Source: Terriglobia bacterium
Lineage (GTDB): Bacteria; Acidobacteriota; Terriglobia; Terriglobales; Acidobacteriaceae
DNA length: 64,000 nucleotides
Direction: 5' to 3'
Assembly: GCA_020072815.1 (NCBI GenBank)
Contig: JAIQGE010000001.1
Location: forward strand, 310,001 to 374,000
This document shows, one piece after another, positions 17,820-46,913 of the stretch (positions are counted from its first letter, which is position 1; every line of letters begins with the position of its first letter). The position numbers and the translations under genes were made by a program. Below the pieces are notes generated by a model. The model was not told where the DNA came from, searched no databases, and saw only the letters and a list, made by a program, of their open reading frames with translations.

Positions 17820-17966
17820 GGGTCTCCGGTGGCAATCCAGAGTATACGGTAGCAGAAGTTTTCTCCAAGGATGCACTAGCGGACTTGGACGGTGCGGGTT
17901 CGCGACATCAGCATTTCCAAATCGTGCCGCCGAAAGCGCGAGAATCCGTGCATGGCGAATCGTCTA

Positions 17967-18014
17967 GCGCCGGAGGCGCGAAATGAGTTAGCCCAGGCCG
18001 GAAGGCCTGGGTAA
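17967..18014 (+). repeat. Twin-hairpin repeat element, copy 1
   Basis: Hairpin GCGCCGGAGGCGC, spacer GAAATGAGTTAG, hairpin CCCAGGCCGGAAGGCCTGGG. About 46 bases are identical, in opposite orientation, to 21035-21080. It is followed at about 18033-18050 by another hairpin, GCCCCGGAGGGGC. It sits between two genes on the minus strand. Confidence 0.85.
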
Positions 18015-21034: not shown

Positions 21035-21080
21035 ACCCAGGCCTTCCGGCCTGGGCTAACTCATTTCGCGCCTCCGGCGC
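21035..21080 (-). repeat. Twin-hairpin repeat element, copy 2
   Basis: The reverse complement of 17967-18014 with no differences across about 46 bases. It lies 40 bases after the TRIC stop. Confidence 0.85.
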
Positions 21081-21222
21081 TCGGGTTTTTACGCGATTCA
21101 ATCCACTGAGCCGTGCACCGCACAAACGCTCCCCTCGTAAACCACCCCTGACACAGCCTCCTAAACCTCCGCTTCCTCCGTTCCTCCGTGTTTCAAAGGT
21201 CTTGTTCTTAGGTTTCGGTTTT

Positions 21223-39468: not shown

Positions 39469-40962
39469 GTGAAACCAAAATCTATTCGGTCCGAATTCCT
39501 GCGCCGCTTGCTGCTGGCGGTAGCAACCATGCTCGTTGTGCCGCTGGCCCTCTCCGCCCACGTCAACAGCCCCGACGTTTATTTTGACGGCCAGGCCGGT
39601 CCCTACCACCTGCTGGTCACGGTGCGTCCGCCCAAGGTGGTGCCGGGCATCGCGCAAATTGAGATTCGCAGCGCCGATGCTGGCGTTGATGAAATCAAAA
39701 TCCTGCCGCTGCGCATGGTGGGCGAGGCTTCCAAGCTGGCGCCCACGGCCGATACGGCGCAACGGTCCGTGGCTGATCCACAGCTTTTTAGCGGGCAACT
39801 ATGGATCATGGCGCGCGGTTCGTGGAAAGTTCAGATTAACGTGCAAGGTAAACGCGGCCCGGGTGAGCTTGCGGTCCCCATGCCGGCGGTCTCCAGCGGC
39901 TCCGCCAGCATGCAGATCGCGCTGGGCGTTCTGCTGGCTTTTCTGGGATTGCTGTTGTGCGCCGGGTTGGTGGGGATCATCGGCGCCGCCAGCCGCGAAG
40001 CCGACTTGCCGCCGGGCGACCAGCCGGCCGCGGAGAAAAAGCTCCTAAGCCGGATCGGAATGGCAGTCACTGCGGCGATGATTGTTGTGGCCCTGATCGG
40101 CGCCAACCGCTGGTGGGACGCGGAGGCCCGGGCCAACGCCAGACTCAATTACAAGCTTCCGCAATTGCACGCCTCGTTGCAGGCGGGAAACCTGCTGCGG
40201 CTGCAGTTGGAGAATCCCAATCAGACTGAACTGGGCCGTTTCGGCACGGTTCCACCGGACCGCTTTGTACTGACTGATCTGGTCCTCGACCACGGTCATC
40301 TCATGCATCTCTTCCTGGTTCGCATGCCGGACATGAAGAGTTTTTGGCATCTTCATCCTGAACAGACTGGTGAAGGCCAGTTTGATGTGGGCCTTCCTTC
40401 CATGCCCGCCGGCCGCTACCAGATCTTTGCCGACGTGGTACACAGCACCGGGTTCCCGGAAACGCAGGTTGGCGGCATTGATCTTCCGGCCATCGCCGCC
40501 GGCGCCTTGAATGGCGACGATTCCGGCATCGCCGAAGCCGTTCCTGCCGACAAAGTTGCTTCGCTTTCCGGCGGCTATCGCATGGTCTGGCTCCGCGACG
40601 ATGCTCCGCTGAAGGCAAATCAAGCTGTGTGGTTTCGCTTCCGCGTGGAAGACAAAGTTGGCAAGCCCGCCGCGGACATGGAAAGTTACATGGGCATGGC
40701 CGGCCACGCGGCTTTCGTCAGCAATGATGGCAGGATCTTTGCGCACGTGCATCCCGCCGGCTCGGTTTCCATGGCGGCAGTCAACATCGCTGAGGGCGAA
40801 GCGCCGCCTGTCCGCGACATGCCCGCCATGCAGCACGATCATCCCGGCGCAGAAGTTTCATTTCCTTACGGGTTTCCCCGGCCCGGCGATTACCACATCT
40901 TTGTTCAAGTAAAACGTGCGGGACGCGTGGAGACCGGCTCGTTTCTTGCCCACGTCCAGTAA
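39469..40962 (+). CDS. Exported His-rich membrane protein, unknown
   Basis: 497 aa from the GTG at 39469, chosen because it follows the previous stop by five bases; the frame is open far upstream inside the previous gene. Signal peptide ending near LSAHV, a beta domain (FDGQAGPYHLLVTVRPPKVVPG), two membrane helices at about 143-170 and 190-208, then a soluble part with His/Met clusters: DHGHLMHLFLVRMPDMKSFWHLHP, MAGHAAF, IFAHVHPAG, MQHDHPG. These HLHP-type motifs suggest copper or another soft metal. Function unknown; metal handling together with the upstream gene is an inference. Confidence 0.75.
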   Translation: MKPKSIRSEFLRRLLLAVATMLVVPLALSAHVNSPDVYFDGQAGPYHLLVTVRPPKVVPGIAQIEIRSADAGVDEIKILPLRMVGEASKLAPTADTAQRSVADPQLFSGQLWIMARGSWKVQINVQGKRGPGELAVPMPAVSSGSASMQIALGVLLAFLGLLLCAGLVGIIGAASREADLPPGDQPAAEKKLLSRIGMAVTAAMIVVALIGANRWWDAEARANARLNYKLPQLHASLQAGNLLRLQLENPNQTELGRFGTVPPDRFVLTDLVLDHGHLMHLFLVRMPDMKSFWHLHPEQTGEGQFDVGLPSMPAGRYQIFADVVHSTGFPETQVGGIDLPAIAAGALNGDDSGIAEAVPADKVASLSGGYRMVWLRDDAPLKANQAVWFRFRVEDKVGKPAADMESYMGMAGHAAFVSNDGRIFAHVHPAGSVSMAAVNIAEGEAPPVRDMPAMQHDHPGAEVSFPYGFPRPGDYHIFVQVKRAGRVETGSFLAHVQ

Positions 40963-41230
40963 GCCAGCAACGCCTGCCGTGAGTGATCGCGAGGGCACAT
41001 TCACTTTGGTAATAAGGCGTGTTGCTTATGTGTTTTCCTCGAAGGGGTGAGGTCTTCCAAATCCTGGAATCGGCTACTGATTCTAATAACATCTGAAAGC
41101 GGGGCTGGACACAGGGCTTTGCGAAATTCGCACAAGTTGAGTGCGACAAGGCCCTCCATCTTTTGGAAGATTGAGTGACTCCTACCGCGGGAAAAGCGGG
41201 TTTACGAACCGGGCACAACGCAGGAAGTCA

Positions 41231-41261
41231 TTGACACTACAGGGAATATTAGTGATATAAA
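41231..41261 (+). promoter_or_regulatory. Promoter of porin A
   Basis: TTGACA at 41231-41236 and GATATA/TATAAA at 41254-41261 (spacer 17-19). The same arrangement lies before porin B. The RNA would start at about 41268. Confidence 0.7.
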
Positions 41262-41298
41262 TTATCCGCGCATTTTTTGGGTGGTGCAACCTAGCAGT

Positions 41299-41356
41299 AA
41301 GTGTGCAATGCAGCCGGACCCCCGAGACGATAAATCCGGTCAGGGGCACGATTCCA
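41299..41356 (+). promoter_or_regulatory. Porin leader element, copy A
   Basis: A 58-base leader nearly identical to 43407-43460: 27 identical bases at the 5' side, a variable loop, then TCCGGTCAGGG and CACGATTCC. CCGGA (41314-41318) pairs with TCCGG (41335-41339), and CCCC inside the loop can pair with GGGG (41343-41346), an H-type pseudoknot. It also encodes an upstream ORF from ATG 41308 (MQPDPRDDKSGQGHDS...), whose stop overlaps the porin start. Confidence 0.7.
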
Positions 41357-41390
41357 TTCCATTCCATTTAGCGAGATTGAGGAGGGTTGA

Positions 41391-43031
41391 ATGAAGGTTC
41401 TACGCAGACTGGGTTTCTTGGTGCTAGCGTCGGGCATGGCGCTGGCACAATCAAATCCGCCGAGCAATTCCACGGTTGCCGACGAGTTGAAAGCTTTGCG
41501 GGAAGCCATTGCCGCGCAGCAGAAACAGATCGCGCAACAGCAGCAAGACATGGCGCAACAGAAGCAGCAGATTGAGAGCTTGAAACAAGCTCTGGACGAA
41601 AAGACCTCCGGCACGCCGCACGTTGCCGATGCTGCTCTACGGACTCCCACCACCACCGAGCCGGTGAACGTGGCCACTGCCGTCCAGGGCGACAAGGAGG
41701 CGGTTAAAGAGTCGCCGCTTTCCTTCCGCATTGGCGGCGCTGAGTTTACGCCTGGCGGATTCATTGACTTTGAGAACATTTTCCGCACAACCAATGCGGG
41801 AGCCGGCACTGCCACCAGCTTCGGCTCGATCCCGTTTAGCAACACCATTCAGGGACACCTGACTGAATTCCGTTCCACCGGCCAGTATTCGCGCCTGAGC
41901 TTGAAGGTTGGCGCCAAGTACGGCGAGAACCGTGTTGTCGGCTATGTGGAAGGCGACTTCAACGGCAACGATGCCGCCAACGTGTTCGTGTCTTCCAATC
42001 CCCACACCGCCCGCGTGCGCCTGTTCTGGGTGGACATGCGTCGCGGCAAGTGGGAATTTGTAGGCGGCCAAACCTGGGGACTGCAGACCCCCAACCGCGT
42101 CGGGCTCTCGCCCAACCCGGGTGACGTCTTTGTGCCCATCGGCGAAGACGCCCAGACCCACGTCGGCCTGCCCTATACCCGCGCTGGTGAGTTCCGCGCC
42201 ATCTACCATGTCAATGACAATTTCCAGTGGGGCGTGGCTCTCCAGAACCCGGACCAGTTCGTAGGCGCCGGGGAAGTCATCTTCCCCTTTGCCTTCAACG
42301 CGGCACTGGGACCCCAGTTTGACGCAGCCAACCAAACCACGGTGGCCGATGCTTTCCCTGACATCCATACCAAGTTTGCCTGGGACAAAGATGTCGACGG
42401 GAAGCACCAGCACTTTGAAGCGGGCGGAATTATCACTTCAGCCAAAATCACCAACGTGCCCATCGGCGGGACCACGTTTGCTCATCATTCGGCGATCGGC
42501 GCAACCGGCCACGCGGCCTTCAACTTTGAACTGGTCAAGGGCTTCCGCGTGATGGCCAACGGCATTTGGGGCTCCGGCGCCGGACGCTACATGATCGGAT
42601 TCGGACCGCAGGCAGTTGTGGTTCCCATCGCGACCGGTCCCGGCACGTTTGACACTGATGTTTCCATGGTCCACTCGGGCGGCACCATCGTGGGATCGGA
42701 ACTCCAGATCGGCAAAAACACCCAGTTGGGCGCCTACTACGGCGGCTTCTATTTCGGACGCAACTCGTTCGCCGATGTGACCTCGCCGCTGGTGGTGAAG
42801 CCCATTATCGGCTTTGGCGGCATCAACTCACCCAACAGCGCTAACCGTGCAATCCAGGAAGCGTCGTTCGACTGGACGCAGACTTTCTGGAAGAACCCGC
42901 AATACGGTGCCGTGCTGCTGGTCACCCAGACTTCCTACGTGACCCGCGCGCCGTGGTTCGTTGCGGCCGGCGCACCCAAGAACGCTCACTTGATGATGGG
43001 CTTTGTCAGCTTGAAGTACGTCATCCCGTAG
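41391..43031 (+). CDS. Outer-membrane porin A (coiled coil + beta barrel)
   Basis: 546 aa. Signal peptide (VLRRLGFLVLASGMALAQ), a Gln-rich coiled coil (AIAAQQKQIAQQQQDMAQQKQ) and then a barrel of about 420 residues with repeated aromatic strands (GGFIDFENIFR, TEFRSTGQYSRLSLKV, VVGYVEGDFNGNDAANVFV, WEFVGGQTWGL) ending in Pro after LKYVI. The plan is that of trimeric porins with an N-terminal coiled coil (DcaP-like/OprP-like). It is the paralog of porin B at 43493. A strong GAGGAGG site precedes the ATG. Substrate unknown. Confidence 0.85.
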   Translation: MKVLRRLGFLVLASGMALAQSNPPSNSTVADELKALREAIAAQQKQIAQQQQDMAQQKQQIESLKQALDEKTSGTPHVADAALRTPTTTEPVNVATAVQGDKEAVKESPLSFRIGGAEFTPGGFIDFENIFRTTNAGAGTATSFGSIPFSNTIQGHLTEFRSTGQYSRLSLKVGAKYGENRVVGYVEGDFNGNDAANVFVSSNPHTARVRLFWVDMRRGKWEFVGGQTWGLQTPNRVGLSPNPGDVFVPIGEDAQTHVGLPYTRAGEFRAIYHVNDNFQWGVALQNPDQFVGAGEVIFPFAFNAALGPQFDAANQTTVADAFPDIHTKFAWDKDVDGKHQHFEAGGIITSAKITNVPIGGTTFAHHSAIGATGHAAFNFELVKGFRVMANGIWGSGAGRYMIGFGPQAVVVPIATGPGTFDTDVSMVHSGGTIVGSELQIGKNTQLGAYYGGFYFGRNSFADVTSPLVVKPIIGFGGINSPNSANRAIQEASFDWTQTFWKNPQYGAVLLVTQTSYVTRAPWFVAAGAPKNAHLMMGFVSLKYVIP

Positions 43032-43059
43032 GCTGTCAAACAGCAATTAACACTTCAAC

Positions 43060-43089
43060 AGAGCGCCAGGAAACTGGCGCTCTTCTTTT
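43060..43089 (+). terminator. Terminator of porin A
   Basis: AGAGCGCCAG / CTGGCGCTCT, ten base pairs, GAAA loop (GNRA type), then TCTTTTTTG. Confidence 0.95.
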
Positions 43090-43171
43090 TTGTCGCTGCG
43101 CTCCAAACCGCGTGCGACCCCGTCTCTAGCAGCGATTCCTCTGCACCGATGGCAAGCCCTCGCCGCGCAAT
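43090..43171 (+). repeat. Divergent copy of the 93-bp repeat
   Basis: Starts TGTCGCTGCGCTCC and keeps GATTCCTCTGCAC and CTCGCCGCGCAA in the same order as the copies at 45202 and 45319, with many changes. It follows the porin A terminator directly. Confidence 0.7.
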
Positions 43172-43340
43172 CGTCTTCCAAACCTCGGATTGCAATACTA
43201 AAGTTAATAGCAAGTGAAAGGGGCTGATTTCCTTTGGACCTACCGACAGCATCGCAAAATGTCCTGGCAAGTTTCCAAATTTTGGAAGATTTATTCAATG
43301 TTGAGCTTTCATCGGTTATCCAAATCTTCACGAAGAATTA

Positions 43341-43371
43341 TTGACACCGCCTAAAACCTCAGTGTTATAAA
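43341..43371 (+). promoter_or_regulatory. Promoter of porin B
   Basis: TTGACA at 43341-43346 and TATAAA at 43366-43371 (or GTTATA two bases earlier, spacer 17). It matches the porin A promoter in layout and in the downstream ATCCGC. Confidence 0.7.
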
Positions 43372-43406
43372 TATCCGCCGCATTTTCCTAGCAAGTTCTG
43401 AGCTAC

Positions 43407-43460
43407 AAGTGTGCAATGCAGCCGGACCCCCGAAAATTTTCCGGTCAGGGTCACGATTCC
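43407..43460 (+). promoter_or_regulatory. Porin leader element, copy B
   Basis: CCGGA (43422-43426) pairs with TCCGG (43440-43444), and CCC in the loop with GGG (43448-43450). The loop is three bases shorter than in copy A. The upstream ORF (ATG 43416, 19 codons, TGA 43473-43475) reads MQPDPRKFSGQGHDSNLNW; compared with copy A the indel is a whole codon and the only change in the GQGHDS part is a synonymous Gly codon. Confidence 0.7.
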
Positions 43461-43492
43461 AATCTGAATTGGTGAGTGAGCGAGGAGAGTTC

Positions 43493-45148
43493 ATGAAATT
43501 TTTACGTCAAATTAGTTTCCTTGTGCTGGCCGCCGGAATGGCTCTGGCCCAGACCAGCACGTCCAGTAGTCCCACTGTTGCCGACGAGCTGAAAGCTTTG
43601 CGTGAGGCCATTGCCGCGCAGCAGAAGCAGATTTCGCAACAACAACGCCAGATAGAAACCTTGACGCAGGCGCTGGAAGATAAGAACGCCGGCACGCCGC
43701 ACGTAGCCGACGCTTCGCTGCGCGTGCCCGCGTCCCAGCCTGCGGTAGTGCCTGCCGCAGCCGTGCAAGAGGGCAAGACGGAAGCCAAAGAATCACCGCT
43801 TTCAGTCAGGATCGGCGGTACCGAATGGACACCGGGCGGATTCATGGATTTCCAGAACATCTTCCGCACGGTGAACACCGGCAACGTGGTCTCTACCGGC
43901 TTCAACGCCATTCCCTTCAATAACACGGCGGCCGGACAGCTCACCGAATACCGCTCCACCGGACAGTACTCACGCTGGAACCTCAAAGTCACCGGCAAGT
44001 ACGCAAACACTAATCTGCTGGGCTATGTGGAAGGCGACTTCAACGGCAATGATGCCGCCAACGTGTTCGTCACCACCAACCCGCACACCCTGCGTTTGCG
44101 TCTTTACTATTTGAACGCCAAGCACGGCCACTGGGAGTTCACTGCCGGACAAGCCTGGGGTCTGATCACGCCGAACAAGATCGGGGTAGGCCCCAACCCA
44201 GGGGACCTGTCCACGACGATGGCCACCGACGGCAACATCCACGTGGGCGTGCCCTACGCTCGTGATGGCCAGTTCCGCGTGGCGATCCATCCTAACGAGC
44301 ACTTCTCCTGGGCCGCCTCAGTGGAAAATCCGCAGCAGATCACCAACGGCGAAGTCATCACGCCGACGGCATTTGCCACGGTGCTGGGCACGCAGATTGA
44401 TGGAGTGGCCACGCCCGGCGTGCCCAACGCCTTCCCGGACATCGTGAGCAAAATGGCCTGGGACACCAAGTTTGGAGCGCGCGCTTTCCACATCGAAGCC
44501 GGCGGCCTGATTACCTCCACCAAACTCGCGGTGCAGCCCACTCCGGTTGTGCCCGGCGAGGCCTTCAATAAGCATTCCAAGATCGGCTCGGGATTGATGG
44601 GCGGAGTCAACTTTGAGCTGTTCAAAAACTTCCGTCTGCTCAGCTACGGCGCCTACGGCGCGGGCATCGGCCGGTACTTCATCGGCTTTGGACCGCAGTA
44701 CGTGGTTGTTCCCTCGGGCACCACTTGCACCAGCGCGGGCGGTTGCGACGTGAACATATCCATGGTCCATGCCGCCACTGGTTACGGTGGAGTGGAAACG
44801 CAACTGGGCTCCAAAACACAACTAGCGGCGTATTACGGCGGCGAGTACTACCAGCGCAGCTCCTTCGCCGACATTACCTCACCCGCGGTCGTGAAGCCGA
44901 TTATCGGCTTTGGCGGCGCCGGTTCGGCCAACACCAACAACCGGGCCATCCAGGAGGGTAGCTTCGTAATCACCCAAACCTTGTGGAAGAACCCGCAGTT
45001 TGGCGCCCTGCTGTTCATCAATGACGCCAGCTACTCCACCCGCGCTCCTTGGTTCGTCAACAAGAACGTCACTACCGGCGCTCTGCTGGCGCCCAAGAAC
45101 GCGCACATGTTCATGGACCACGTGGTGCTTCGTTACGTTCTGCCGTAG
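43493..45148 (+). CDS. Outer-membrane porin B (paralog of porin A)
   Basis: 551 aa from the ATG at 43493, with GAGGAGAG upstream; the frame is open to 43409 through the leader element but that start is not used in porin A. Signal peptide (ISFLVLAAGMALAQ), Gln-rich coiled coil (AIAAQQKQISQQQRQIETL), then the barrel (GGFMDFQNIFRTVNTGN, YRSTGQYSRWNLKV, LLGYVEGDFNGNDAANVFV, WEFTAGQAWGL, APKNAHMFMDHVVLRYVLP). The order of strands matches porin A throughout. Strands differ mainly in the external loops, so substrate range may differ. Confidence 0.85.
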   Translation: MKFLRQISFLVLAAGMALAQTSTSSSPTVADELKALREAIAAQQKQISQQQRQIETLTQALEDKNAGTPHVADASLRVPASQPAVVPAAAVQEGKTEAKESPLSVRIGGTEWTPGGFMDFQNIFRTVNTGNVVSTGFNAIPFNNTAAGQLTEYRSTGQYSRWNLKVTGKYANTNLLGYVEGDFNGNDAANVFVTTNPHTLRLRLYYLNAKHGHWEFTAGQAWGLITPNKIGVGPNPGDLSTTMATDGNIHVGVPYARDGQFRVAIHPNEHFSWAASVENPQQITNGEVITPTAFATVLGTQIDGVATPGVPNAFPDIVSKMAWDTKFGARAFHIEAGGLITSTKLAVQPTPVVPGEAFNKHSKIGSGLMGGVNFELFKNFRLLSYGAYGAGIGRYFIGFGPQYVVVPSGTTCTSAGGCDVNISMVHAATGYGGVETQLGSKTQLAAYYGGEYYQRSSFADITSPAVVKPIIGFGGAGSANTNNRAIQEGSFVITQTLWKNPQFGALLFINDASYSTRAPWFVNKNVTTGALLAPKNAHMFMDHVVLRYVLP

Positions 45149-45169: not shown

Positions 45170-45202
45170 GAGCGCCGGTTCCTGCCGGCGCTCTTTTATT
45201 TT
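45170..45202 (+). terminator. Terminator of porin B
   Basis: GAGCGCCGG / CCGGCGCTC, nine base pairs, six-base loop, then TTTTATTTT. It is similar in stem to the porin A terminator. Confidence 0.95.
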
Positions 45203-45411
45203 GTCGCTGCGCTCCACACCGCTTGCGATTTTCGTCTCCGCAGAGATTCCTCTGCACTTGAAACCAGCCCCTCGCCGCGCAAGCCGGGCCCGCGCCTTAA
45301 AGTTGCAGCCGGGGGAAATGTCGCTGCGCTCCACACCGCTTGCGATTTTCGTCTCCGCAGAGATTCCTCTGCACCTGAAACCAGCCGCTCGCCGCGCAAG
45401 CCGGGCTCGCG
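45202..45411 (+). repeat. Tandem 93-bp direct repeats, two copies
   Basis: 45202-45294 and 45319-45411 differ at only a few positions, 117 bases apart from start to start. Each begins TGTCGCTGCGCTCCACACCG and ends GCCGGG(C/T)(C/T)CGCG. A divergent relative is at 43090. Confidence 0.9.
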
Positions 45412-45450: not shown

Positions 45451-46278
45451 ATGCGAACCGCTTGCTTCCTGATGTCGTTGGCATGTTTGTTGTCCGGGCA
45501 AAGCGTGTTCTCCCAGCCCGTTCAAGGCAAACACGCGCGCGTTGAGCTGTTGTCGCGCCAAGCATCCGTGACGCCCGGCGCGGAACTCATGCTGGGCGTG
45601 CACTTCATGCTGGAAAAAGGCTGGCATATTTATTGGATCAACCCCGGCGACTCCGGCCAGCCTCCGGCTTTCAAGTGGCAGCTGCCCAACGGATTCACCG
45701 CAGGCGACGTTCGCTGGCCCCGCCCGGAACGCATGCAGAATTCCCCGATGATCGCCGACTACGGCTACCACGATGACGTCCTGCTCACGGTCCCGGTCCG
45801 TGCGCCGCAAGCGATCGCCGGTGGCAAGGCTCTGGCCATCGAAGTGGAAGCCAAATGGCTGATCTGCCGCGAAGTCTGCATCCCCGATAAAGCTAAGCTG
45901 GCGCTCTCTCTGCCGGTGAGCGGCGCCGCCAAGAACGATCCAGCCACCGCCAGGCTTTTCGCTGACGCGGAGAAACTGCTTCCCGCACCCTGGCCGAAAG
46001 CCTGGAATGCCCGGGCAGAATCGCAAACCAGCAATTTCGTGTTGACCATTGACGCCGGCAAGCCGGTCAACAAAGCCATGTTCTTCCCGCTTGATCCGGA
46101 CCAAATTGACAATCCGGCGCCGCAGTTGCTGCGGGTGCAACCCCGGGGAGCGGCGATCGCGCTGCGCAAGTCCGACCTGCTGACTAAGCCCATCACCGTT
46201 TTGCGCGGGGTGCTGGTGCTGGCCGATGGTTCGGCTTACCGGCTGGAAGCTCCCGTGGCTGCAAAAGCGATAAAATGA
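45451..46278 (+). CDS. DsbD N-domain-like exported protein
   Basis: 275 aa. Signal peptide (residues 1-21). The body is an immunoglobulin-like DsbD-alpha domain (PF11412): WHIYWINPGDSGQPP, MIADYGYHDDVLLTVPV, and the redox pair C139 and C143 in ICREVCIPD. In DsbD the domain passes electrons to periplasmic partners, but here there is no membrane domain or thioredoxin domain in the same protein. The stop overlaps the frame of the next gene, and that gene is a redoxin, which may be its partner. Confidence 0.85.
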   Translation: MRTACFLMSLACLLSGQSVFSQPVQGKHARVELLSRQASVTPGAELMLGVHFMLEKGWHIYWINPGDSGQPPAFKWQLPNGFTAGDVRWPRPERMQNSPMIADYGYHDDVLLTVPVRAPQAIAGGKALAIEVEAKWLICREVCIPDKAKLALSLPVSGAAKNDPATARLFADAEKLLPAPWPKAWNARAESQTSNFVLTIDAGKPVNKAMFFPLDPDQIDNPAPQLLRVQPRGAAIALRKSDLLTKPITVLRGVLVLADGSAYRLEAPVAAKAIK

Positions 46279-46304
46279 ATTTCGCGCAAGTTCCAGGAGG
46301 ACCC

Positions 46305-46913
46305 ATGAGCAAGCTCCGCTATTCGCTGGTGACTCTGGGAGTCGTTTCCCTTTTGACCTTGGCCCACGCGGCCCGAGTGGGCGAGCCCGCGCCCGGTTTC
46401 ACCGCCGTGGACAGCAACGGCAAGCAGCGCAGTCTTTCTGACTACAAAGGCAAATACGTGGTGCTGGAGTGGCACAACCAGGGCTGTCCTTACACCAAGA
46501 AGCACTATGAGAGCGGCAACATGCAACGCCTGCAAAAGGAATGGACCAGCAAAGGCGTGGTATGGCTCACCGTGATCTCTTCCGCCCAGGGAACGCAGGG
46601 CTTTGTCACCCCGACGCAAGAGAACGAGTACCTGCAAAAGATGAACGCCGTGCCCACCGCCGTCCTCATGGATCCCGGCGGCAGCCTGGGACATCTCTAC
46701 GCCGCCAAGACCACGCCGCACATGTACATTATTGATCCCGGCGGCACGCTGATCTACCAAGGGGCCATTGATGATCATCCAACGTCGGACGCGGGAGACA
46801 TTCCCAAGTCCAAGAACTACGTCAACGCGGCGCTGGGTGAAGCGATGAGCGGCAAACCGGTCAGTGATGCGGCCACGCGCCCTTACGGCTGCTCAGTCAA
46901 GTACAAAGACTAG
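46305..46913 (+). CDS. Exported redoxin/thioredoxin-fold protein
   Basis: 202 aa from the ATG at 46305, with AGGAGG four bases upstream; an ATG at 46275 overlaps the upstream stop. Signal peptide (SLVTLGVVSLLTLAHA), then an AhpC/TSA-redoxin fold (GEPAPGFTAVDSNGKQRSLSDYKGKYVVLEW) with a single Cys at the active position in NQGCPYTKKHYESG, and TTPHMYIIDPGGTLIYQGAIDD with cis-Pro. The lone Cys followed by Pro-Tyr-Thr is unlike a CxxC thioredoxin, so it may be a peroxiredoxin-like or sulfenic-acid type. It pairs with the DsbD-N-like gene. Confidence 0.85.
   Translation: MSKLRYSLVTLGVVSLLTLAHAARVGEPAPGFTAVDSNGKQRSLSDYKGKYVVLEWHNQGCPYTKKHYESGNMQRLQKEWTSKGVVWLTVISSAQGTQGFVTPTQENEYLQKMNAVPTAVLMDPGGSLGHLYAAKTTPHMYIIDPGGTLIYQGAIDDHPTSDAGDIPKSKNYVNAALGEAMSGKPVSDAATRPYGCSVKYKD

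Follow-up and report, generated by a model that had tools for sequence, protein, structure and literature searches.

The window, a stretch of 64,000 nucleotides from a contig of a Terriglobia bacterium of the family Acidobacteriaceae, carries two adjoining genes, porin A and porin B, each preceded by a copy of the same short leader block (Table 1). The neighbouring gene on the 5' side ends at 40962 and had no Pfam match in its last 500 codons; on the 3' side lies a gene at 45451 with a DsbD_N domain identified by Pfam. As a terminator-like hairpin with a T run follows porin A, porin B is probably transcribed on its own.

Table 1 Positions of the porin genes, their leaders and associated features in the window
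Feature	Positions	Strand	Basis or remark
Site CTTCCAAA, porin A, distal half of inverted pair	41054..41061	+	CTTCCAA at the matching place in all three genes
Site CTTCCAAA read as TTTGGAAG, porin A	41162..41169	-	Site scan
Promoter-like TTGACA-19 nt-TATAAAT, porin A	41231..41262	+	Sequence; conserved in copies A, B and C
Conserved leader core, copy A	41300..41355	+	Sequence, self-comparison, three-copy alignment, covariance search
Candidate upstream ORF, copy A (28 codons + stop)	41308..41394	+	Judged non-functional; frame lost in copy C
Porin A gene, DcaP-like, 546 aa	41391..43031	+	Family from weak profile match and from the model of porin B, in whose alignment A is included
Terminator-like hairpin with T run, 3' of porin A	43060..43083	+	Terminator scan
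Site CTTCCAAA, porin B	43175..43182	+	Site scan, alignment
Site CTTCCAAA, porin B	43281..43288	-	Site scan
Promoter-like TTGACA-19 nt-TATAAAT, porin B	43341..43372	+	Sequence, alignment
Conserved leader core, copy B	43408..43460	+	Sequence, self-comparison, three-copy alignment, covariance search
Candidate upstream ORF, copy B (19 codons + stop)	43416..43475	+	Judged non-functional
Porin B gene, DcaP-like, 551 aa	43493..45148	+	Protein start resembles A and C; barrel resembles porin L004 of G002

Two porin genes with a common leader core

At an E-value of 0.001 Pfam returned no family for either porin, and up to an E-value of 1 it gave weak matches only (best E 0.0015); a sequence profile built from 15 relatives weakly matched DcaP (E 0.0011). 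An AlphaFold model of porin B, of moderate confidence (mean pLDDT 65.7), has a helix at residues 29-64 followed by a barrel with many strands. Searching with this model in Foldseek, we found DcaP of Acinetobacter baumannii (PDB 6eus) as the best match (E 3.7e-16, TM-score 0.75 by target length and 0.49 by query length, 13% identity), with many general porins ranking after it. The predicted architecture combines a beta-barrel with an N-terminal coiled coil, the combination by which we call a protein DcaP-like. Because of the barrel model and DcaP as first structural match, the assignment as a porin is sound; the likeness to DcaP lies in the fold of the porin B product, and the low identity, the weak profile match and the moderate model confidence set it apart.

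Comparison of the two leaders upheld what the earlier note had described of their sequence. The first 27 nt are identical (41299-41325 and 43407-43433), and a second block (41335-41359 and 43440-43464; 25 nt, 92% identical) contains both TCCGGTCAGGG and CACGATTCC, the latter ending in copy A at 41355, one base before the 41356 that had been given. The variable loop differs by 3 nt between the copies, as claimed, and the reported divergence of the surrounding DNA is clear just 5' of the core, where A and B agree at 15/35 positions against 48/53 within it; the contrast is smaller on the 3' side (21/35). Within leader A the blocks AGTGTGCAATGCAGCC, CCGGA, TCCGG, GGG and ATG can be made out. In the bacterium's own genome (G000), a pattern for the whole core matched copies A and B only.

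Repeats were also seen 3' of the porin genes. A 93-nt tandem duplicate (97%; 45202-45294 and 45319-45411) follows porin B, a related piece of 42 nt (43076-43117) follows porin A, and 25-31 nt of the duplicate aligned by blastn with DNA 3' of porin C, the gene in genome G002 described below. Elsewhere in the window, the RNA family Acido-Lenti-1 (RF01687) occurs twice, at 17966-18011 on the minus strand and 21036-21081 on the plus strand (54.3 bits each, gathering threshold 37).

A third copy in a second species

Searching 100 relatives with porin B gave matches in 63. For 15 matches, spread over 11 genomes and including a distant one in the bacterium's own genome (C1:155973), we read the DNA on the 5' side, and likewise for one in G093. 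The element was present in one of the 15 upstream regions (L033): copy C, AGTGTGCAATGCAGCCGAGGACCCCGAGAATACGATTCCGGTCAGGGTCACGATTCC, lies before another porin in another species of the same genus (G002:C375). It is also present in a public contig, JANXPR010000115.1, from the metagenome-assembled genome Acidobacteriaceae bacterium GL140_3_concoct_315 (L074), with the same score as G002:C375 under a covariance model of the core with helix 1 (R1); we infer that the two are one record, that is, copy C. The slot is syntenic between the two species: by blastn, the DNA flanking the tandem porin pair of G002 on either side aligns with positions 39910-40954 and 45514-46627 of the window. Neither the other G002 porin in this slot nor L004, the G002 relative closest to porin B, has the element.

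The covariance-model search that the earlier note had suggested, run over 200 relatives and over 398 family genomes, two sets that overlap, returned three convincing copies only, at 81-85 bits, a count from which strongly diverged copies may be missing since the stricter filters of Infernal were in force. Seven of the nine genus genomes, two of these seven less than 90% complete, gave no R1 match. R2, a model built on sequence alone and spanning the entire promoter and leader, found only the same three places in the 15 loci and the window. R1 made three further matches in the window (E 0.21-6.5). Weak R1 matches in G063, G088 and G351 (E 0.018-0.09) and in G282 (34.8 bits, E 9.5e-5) were rejected as chance, as they lie inside or antisense to long ORFs, which we take from their translations to encode two aminotransferases, a TonB-receptor-like protein and MnmE.

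Each half of the core, searched for alone, led to little beyond these copies. With up to two mismatches, the second-half pattern CCGGTCAGGGNCACGATTCC matched in 84 of 300 family genomes, an unexpected excess over the 8 reached by its reversed control; exact matches were confined to A, B and C. We examined 30 such loci, A and C among them. At the other 28 the 60 bases on the 5' side hold no first half, and the match falls in a stop-free frame of at least 176 codons, so the second half alone is likely a recurring coding motif; the caveat is that the frames around A and C, at 185 and 202 codons, are free of stops too. Among genome contigs the second half was found in seven stretches, of which L074 holds the element and the other six have no first half and at most 24 bits under R1; in G000 and G002 it was found at 16 places, 13 of them outside the element and without a first half. 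No viral contig matched the second-half pattern. The first half alone occurs at 13 places in the nine genus genomes, ten beyond the three copies, and none of the nine that we read continues into the rest of the core.

Porin leaders of two further genus genomes, G004 and G005 (L034 and L035), have a different block in common, ATTATCACCTTGATGGGCCGA, perhaps another leader element in the genus. Reading frames 5' of the G002 porin L004 (position 752) and the G004 porin L005 (position 1501) presumably encode, by eye, PstS-like and sensor-histidine-kinase-like proteins, a hint of a link to phosphate.

The affinity of porin B differs along its length. In a tree, porin B clusters with L004, and A, C and the other G002 porin form no resolved grouping among themselves. 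By segment, porin B is like A and C over its first 120 or so alignment columns and like L004 over most of the rest, a mosaic that suggests recombination within the gene. The nearest relative of the barrel of B is a gene without the leader element, and the protein start of B is of the kind found in A and C, as if leader and signal peptide had moved together.

Conservation of the core and its upstream company

Over the three copies, 45 of 57 core columns are invariant, compared with 43 of 130 fourfold-degenerate sites of the same three genes (Fisher p 5.6e-9), 11 of 37 columns in the 5' flank (p 3.6e-6) and 20 of 39 in the 3' flank (p 0.007), p values that are indicative only because the segment borders were picked after the alignment had been viewed. 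The promoter is invariant at 22 of 33 columns. Pairwise, core identity is 48/53 for A/B, 48/56 for A/C and 48/53 for B/C. The corresponding values in the upstream flank (columns 39-75) are 15/35, 14/35 and 24/35, in the downstream flank 21/35, 24/36 and 28/35, and in the promoter 23/33, 24/33 and 25/33. The leaders of B and C are thus fairly similar outside the core as well, which we count against our main reading.

Synonymous distances among the three porin genes are large (NG86 dS 0.99-1.45), and between the two species a neighbouring orthologue is identical at 233 of 350 residues and at only 59 of 118 fourfold sites, so recency does not account for the identity of the leaders. The excess of invariant columns in the core over fourfold sites and upstream flank points to selection and not to recent duplication. 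Of the pattern that the earlier note had held against function, neutral decay of a recent duplication was not seen, and neither covariation nor a codon-like pattern was seen among the three copies. Its central proposal, a conserved leader element under selection, finds support in the three-copy comparison; the core is real and conserved, and it is probably regulatory.

The core does not stand alone. It lies 3' of a conserved promoter and 5' of the start codon, and the three genes have the same order of blocks: an inverted pair of CTTCCAA sites, TTGACA-N19-TATAAAT, CGCATTTT near the likely 5' end of the transcript, the 57-column core and a Shine-Dalgarno sequence, with much of the intervening DNA diverged. 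Both ATTGACAC and GTG-N-TATAAAT are invariant in A, B and C. A scan for consensus promoters listed none, as it accepts spacers of 16-18 nt and the gap here is 19 nt, and the promoter call therefore rests on conservation.

The inverted CTTCCAA sites are 105-108 bp apart, at -337/-229 in A, -318/-212 in B and -331/-226 in C; the three TTTGGAAG sites, which are not all in register in the global alignment, were recognized by position. Of 13 porin leaders scanned (327-469 bases each), the spaced pair is present in the three that bear the element and in none of the other ten, among which L035 carries an adjacent palindrome, and single sites occur in L013 and L010. The window contains eight occurrences of CTTCCAAA against 2.59 expected, four of them at the porin leaders. 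The exact arrangement CTTCCAA-N90-108-TTTGGAA is confined to A and B in G000 and to C in G002. Elsewhere in the genus, G008 and G001 have two occurrences apiece, which lie within stop-free frames of 105-587 codons, and a reversed control pattern was found at four places in other genus genomes and at none in G000 or G002.

Readings of the core

What we observe directly is the conservation of the core, its placement and the company of the site pair. The reading we favour, holding belief and doubt in it about equal, is that a dedicated cis-regulatory module serves a small set of DcaP-like porins and that the core, its part in the 5' leader, is recognized in the mRNA by a trans-acting factor. A transcription factor at the upstream inverted pair would set promoter activity. 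With a transcription start a few bases 3' of TATAAAT, the core would lie some 30-90 bases into the mRNA, where an RNA-binding protein or a small RNA could recognize it and so adjust translation or stability of the porin message; a ligand in place of such a factor appears less probable. Recognition would operate mainly through sequence and not through helices. A pattern search of the genome found no small-RNA partner.

The main rival, which we regard as somewhat unlikely, makes the core a DNA operator: a repressor or some other DNA-binding protein would bind it just 3' of the promoter and cooperate with the upstream CTTCCAA pair, for instance by forming a loop. Its nearness to the promoter and its association with the inverted pair in all three genes are in keeping with this, as are the absence of an RNA structure signal and the repeats within the core, where A and B have the short inverted repeat CCGGA/TCCGG, and B and C have both another, GACCC/GGGTC, and the partial direct repeat GGTCAGGGTCA. 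Against it, 57 columns with several separate invariant blocks are long for a single operator, and helical phasing of the two core halves is not kept, since the loop between them is 9 nt long in A and C and 6 nt in B.

An unlikely variant of recognition in the mRNA is that the core represents a hitherto undescribed, narrowly distributed RNA class, conserved in sequence and not in helices, that would sense a ligand or a dedicated small RNA, set the amount of DcaP-like porin and work with its own private site pair.

A defined fold, either a small-molecule riboswitch or another functional H-type pseudoknot made of CCGGA/TCCGG and a C run paired with a G run, appears quite improbable. The first helix that the earlier note had drawn can form in A and B; to form it, C needs a bulged A and a G-U pair. 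The second helix reaches 4 bp in A and 3 bp in the other two copies, in which its fourth pair is broken. Across the copies 92.6% of cells in the helices are paired, compared with at most 73.1% when the partners are slid, an advantage that is expected for a structure read off the same sequences. None of nine pairs changed on both sides, and the covariation score equals that of shuffles, a weak test with three sequences. Knots of 5 + 4 bp under strict Watson-Crick pairing are common in shuffled sequences (86/500 for A, 100/500 for B and 74/500 for C), whereas the real B has none and the real C only a different one. Among nested structures, to which this comparison is limited, consensus folds of four segments were no better than those of column-shuffled alignments (z -0.21 to +1.25), and neither were nine single-sequence folds better than shuffles (z -1.01 to +0.75). 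By eye we also considered pairing of a 5' CATTTTCCTA, present in B and C and absent from A, with the Shine-Dalgarno region.

Among 4227 Rfam models, none matched at the element at gathering threshold in a search of the whole window, which returned only the two Acido-Lenti-1 matches. A permissive search of 41200-43520 gave two matches (E 2.7 and 3.9), both away from the element, within porin A or 3' of it, and a search of leaders A, B and C up to E 10 gave only mir-10 on the opposite strand of B (E 9.6). Known pseudoknot leaders and small riboswitches include guanidine-III and SAM-II. The element resembles such leaders in being a short conserved segment before a start codon with GC-rich strands able to form an H-type knot, and differs from them in having no Rfam match, no covariation and a second helix of 3 bp in two copies.

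That the core encodes a translated leader peptide is very improbable, although copies A and B taken by themselves bear out every detail of the claim. In both, an ORF reading MQPDPR..SGQGHDS runs from an ATG (41308 and 43416), the frame survives the 3-nt length difference, a Gly codon differs synonymously and, in A, the TGA overlaps the porin ATG at 41391. In copy C the distance from the ATG to the SGQGHDS segment is longer by one base, so that the ATG frame there reads MQPRTPRIRFRSGSRFQ and the SGQGHDS frame would need a GTG start in another frame; the net difference in core length between A and C is likewise one base. C comes from a metagenome-assembled genome and an assembly error is conceivable, but the change consists of an inserted A and two neighbouring substitutions and is not a simple homopolymer slip. 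No GGAG-like Shine-Dalgarno run was found in the 15 bases 5' of the ATG in A, B or C, and the ORF stops fall at different positions. The frame shift in C and the missing Shine-Dalgarno sequences are our evidence against a peptide. The earlier note had seen joint support for an RNA fold and a peptide; the three-copy comparison backs neither in its detailed form. Separately, we rejected the idea that porin B begins further 5', at a GTG at 43409, and reads through the element, because this frame is closed in A and C.

Similarity without function, left by shared ancestry or by gene conversion, which is possible as A and B adjoin, is in keeping with the lack of matches in seven of nine genus genomes but is scarcely credible given that C lies in another species at large synonymous distance and that conservation centres on the core and a small number of other blocks.

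For the favoured reading, a dedicated module whose leader part is recognized in the mRNA, a parallel lies in Enterobacteria, where small RNAs act on porin mRNAs post-transcriptionally. The element resembles those leaders as a conserved sequence in a porin 5' untranslated region, and differs in belonging to another phylum and another porin family and in that the pattern search found no small RNA for it. To our knowledge, little is known of how outer-membrane channels are controlled in Acidobacteriota. A search for literature on DcaP porins in Acidobacteria returned none, and the word 'porin' does not occur in the main text of PMC2864571.

A single additional genome undid an upstream-peptide claim that had been persuasive from two copies. 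The same genome offers a natural contrast, as close porin relatives in G002 lack the module. Together, the site pair, promoter and leader core make up a compact, testable module common to three porin genes in two species, through which the amount of these DcaP-like porins may be set.
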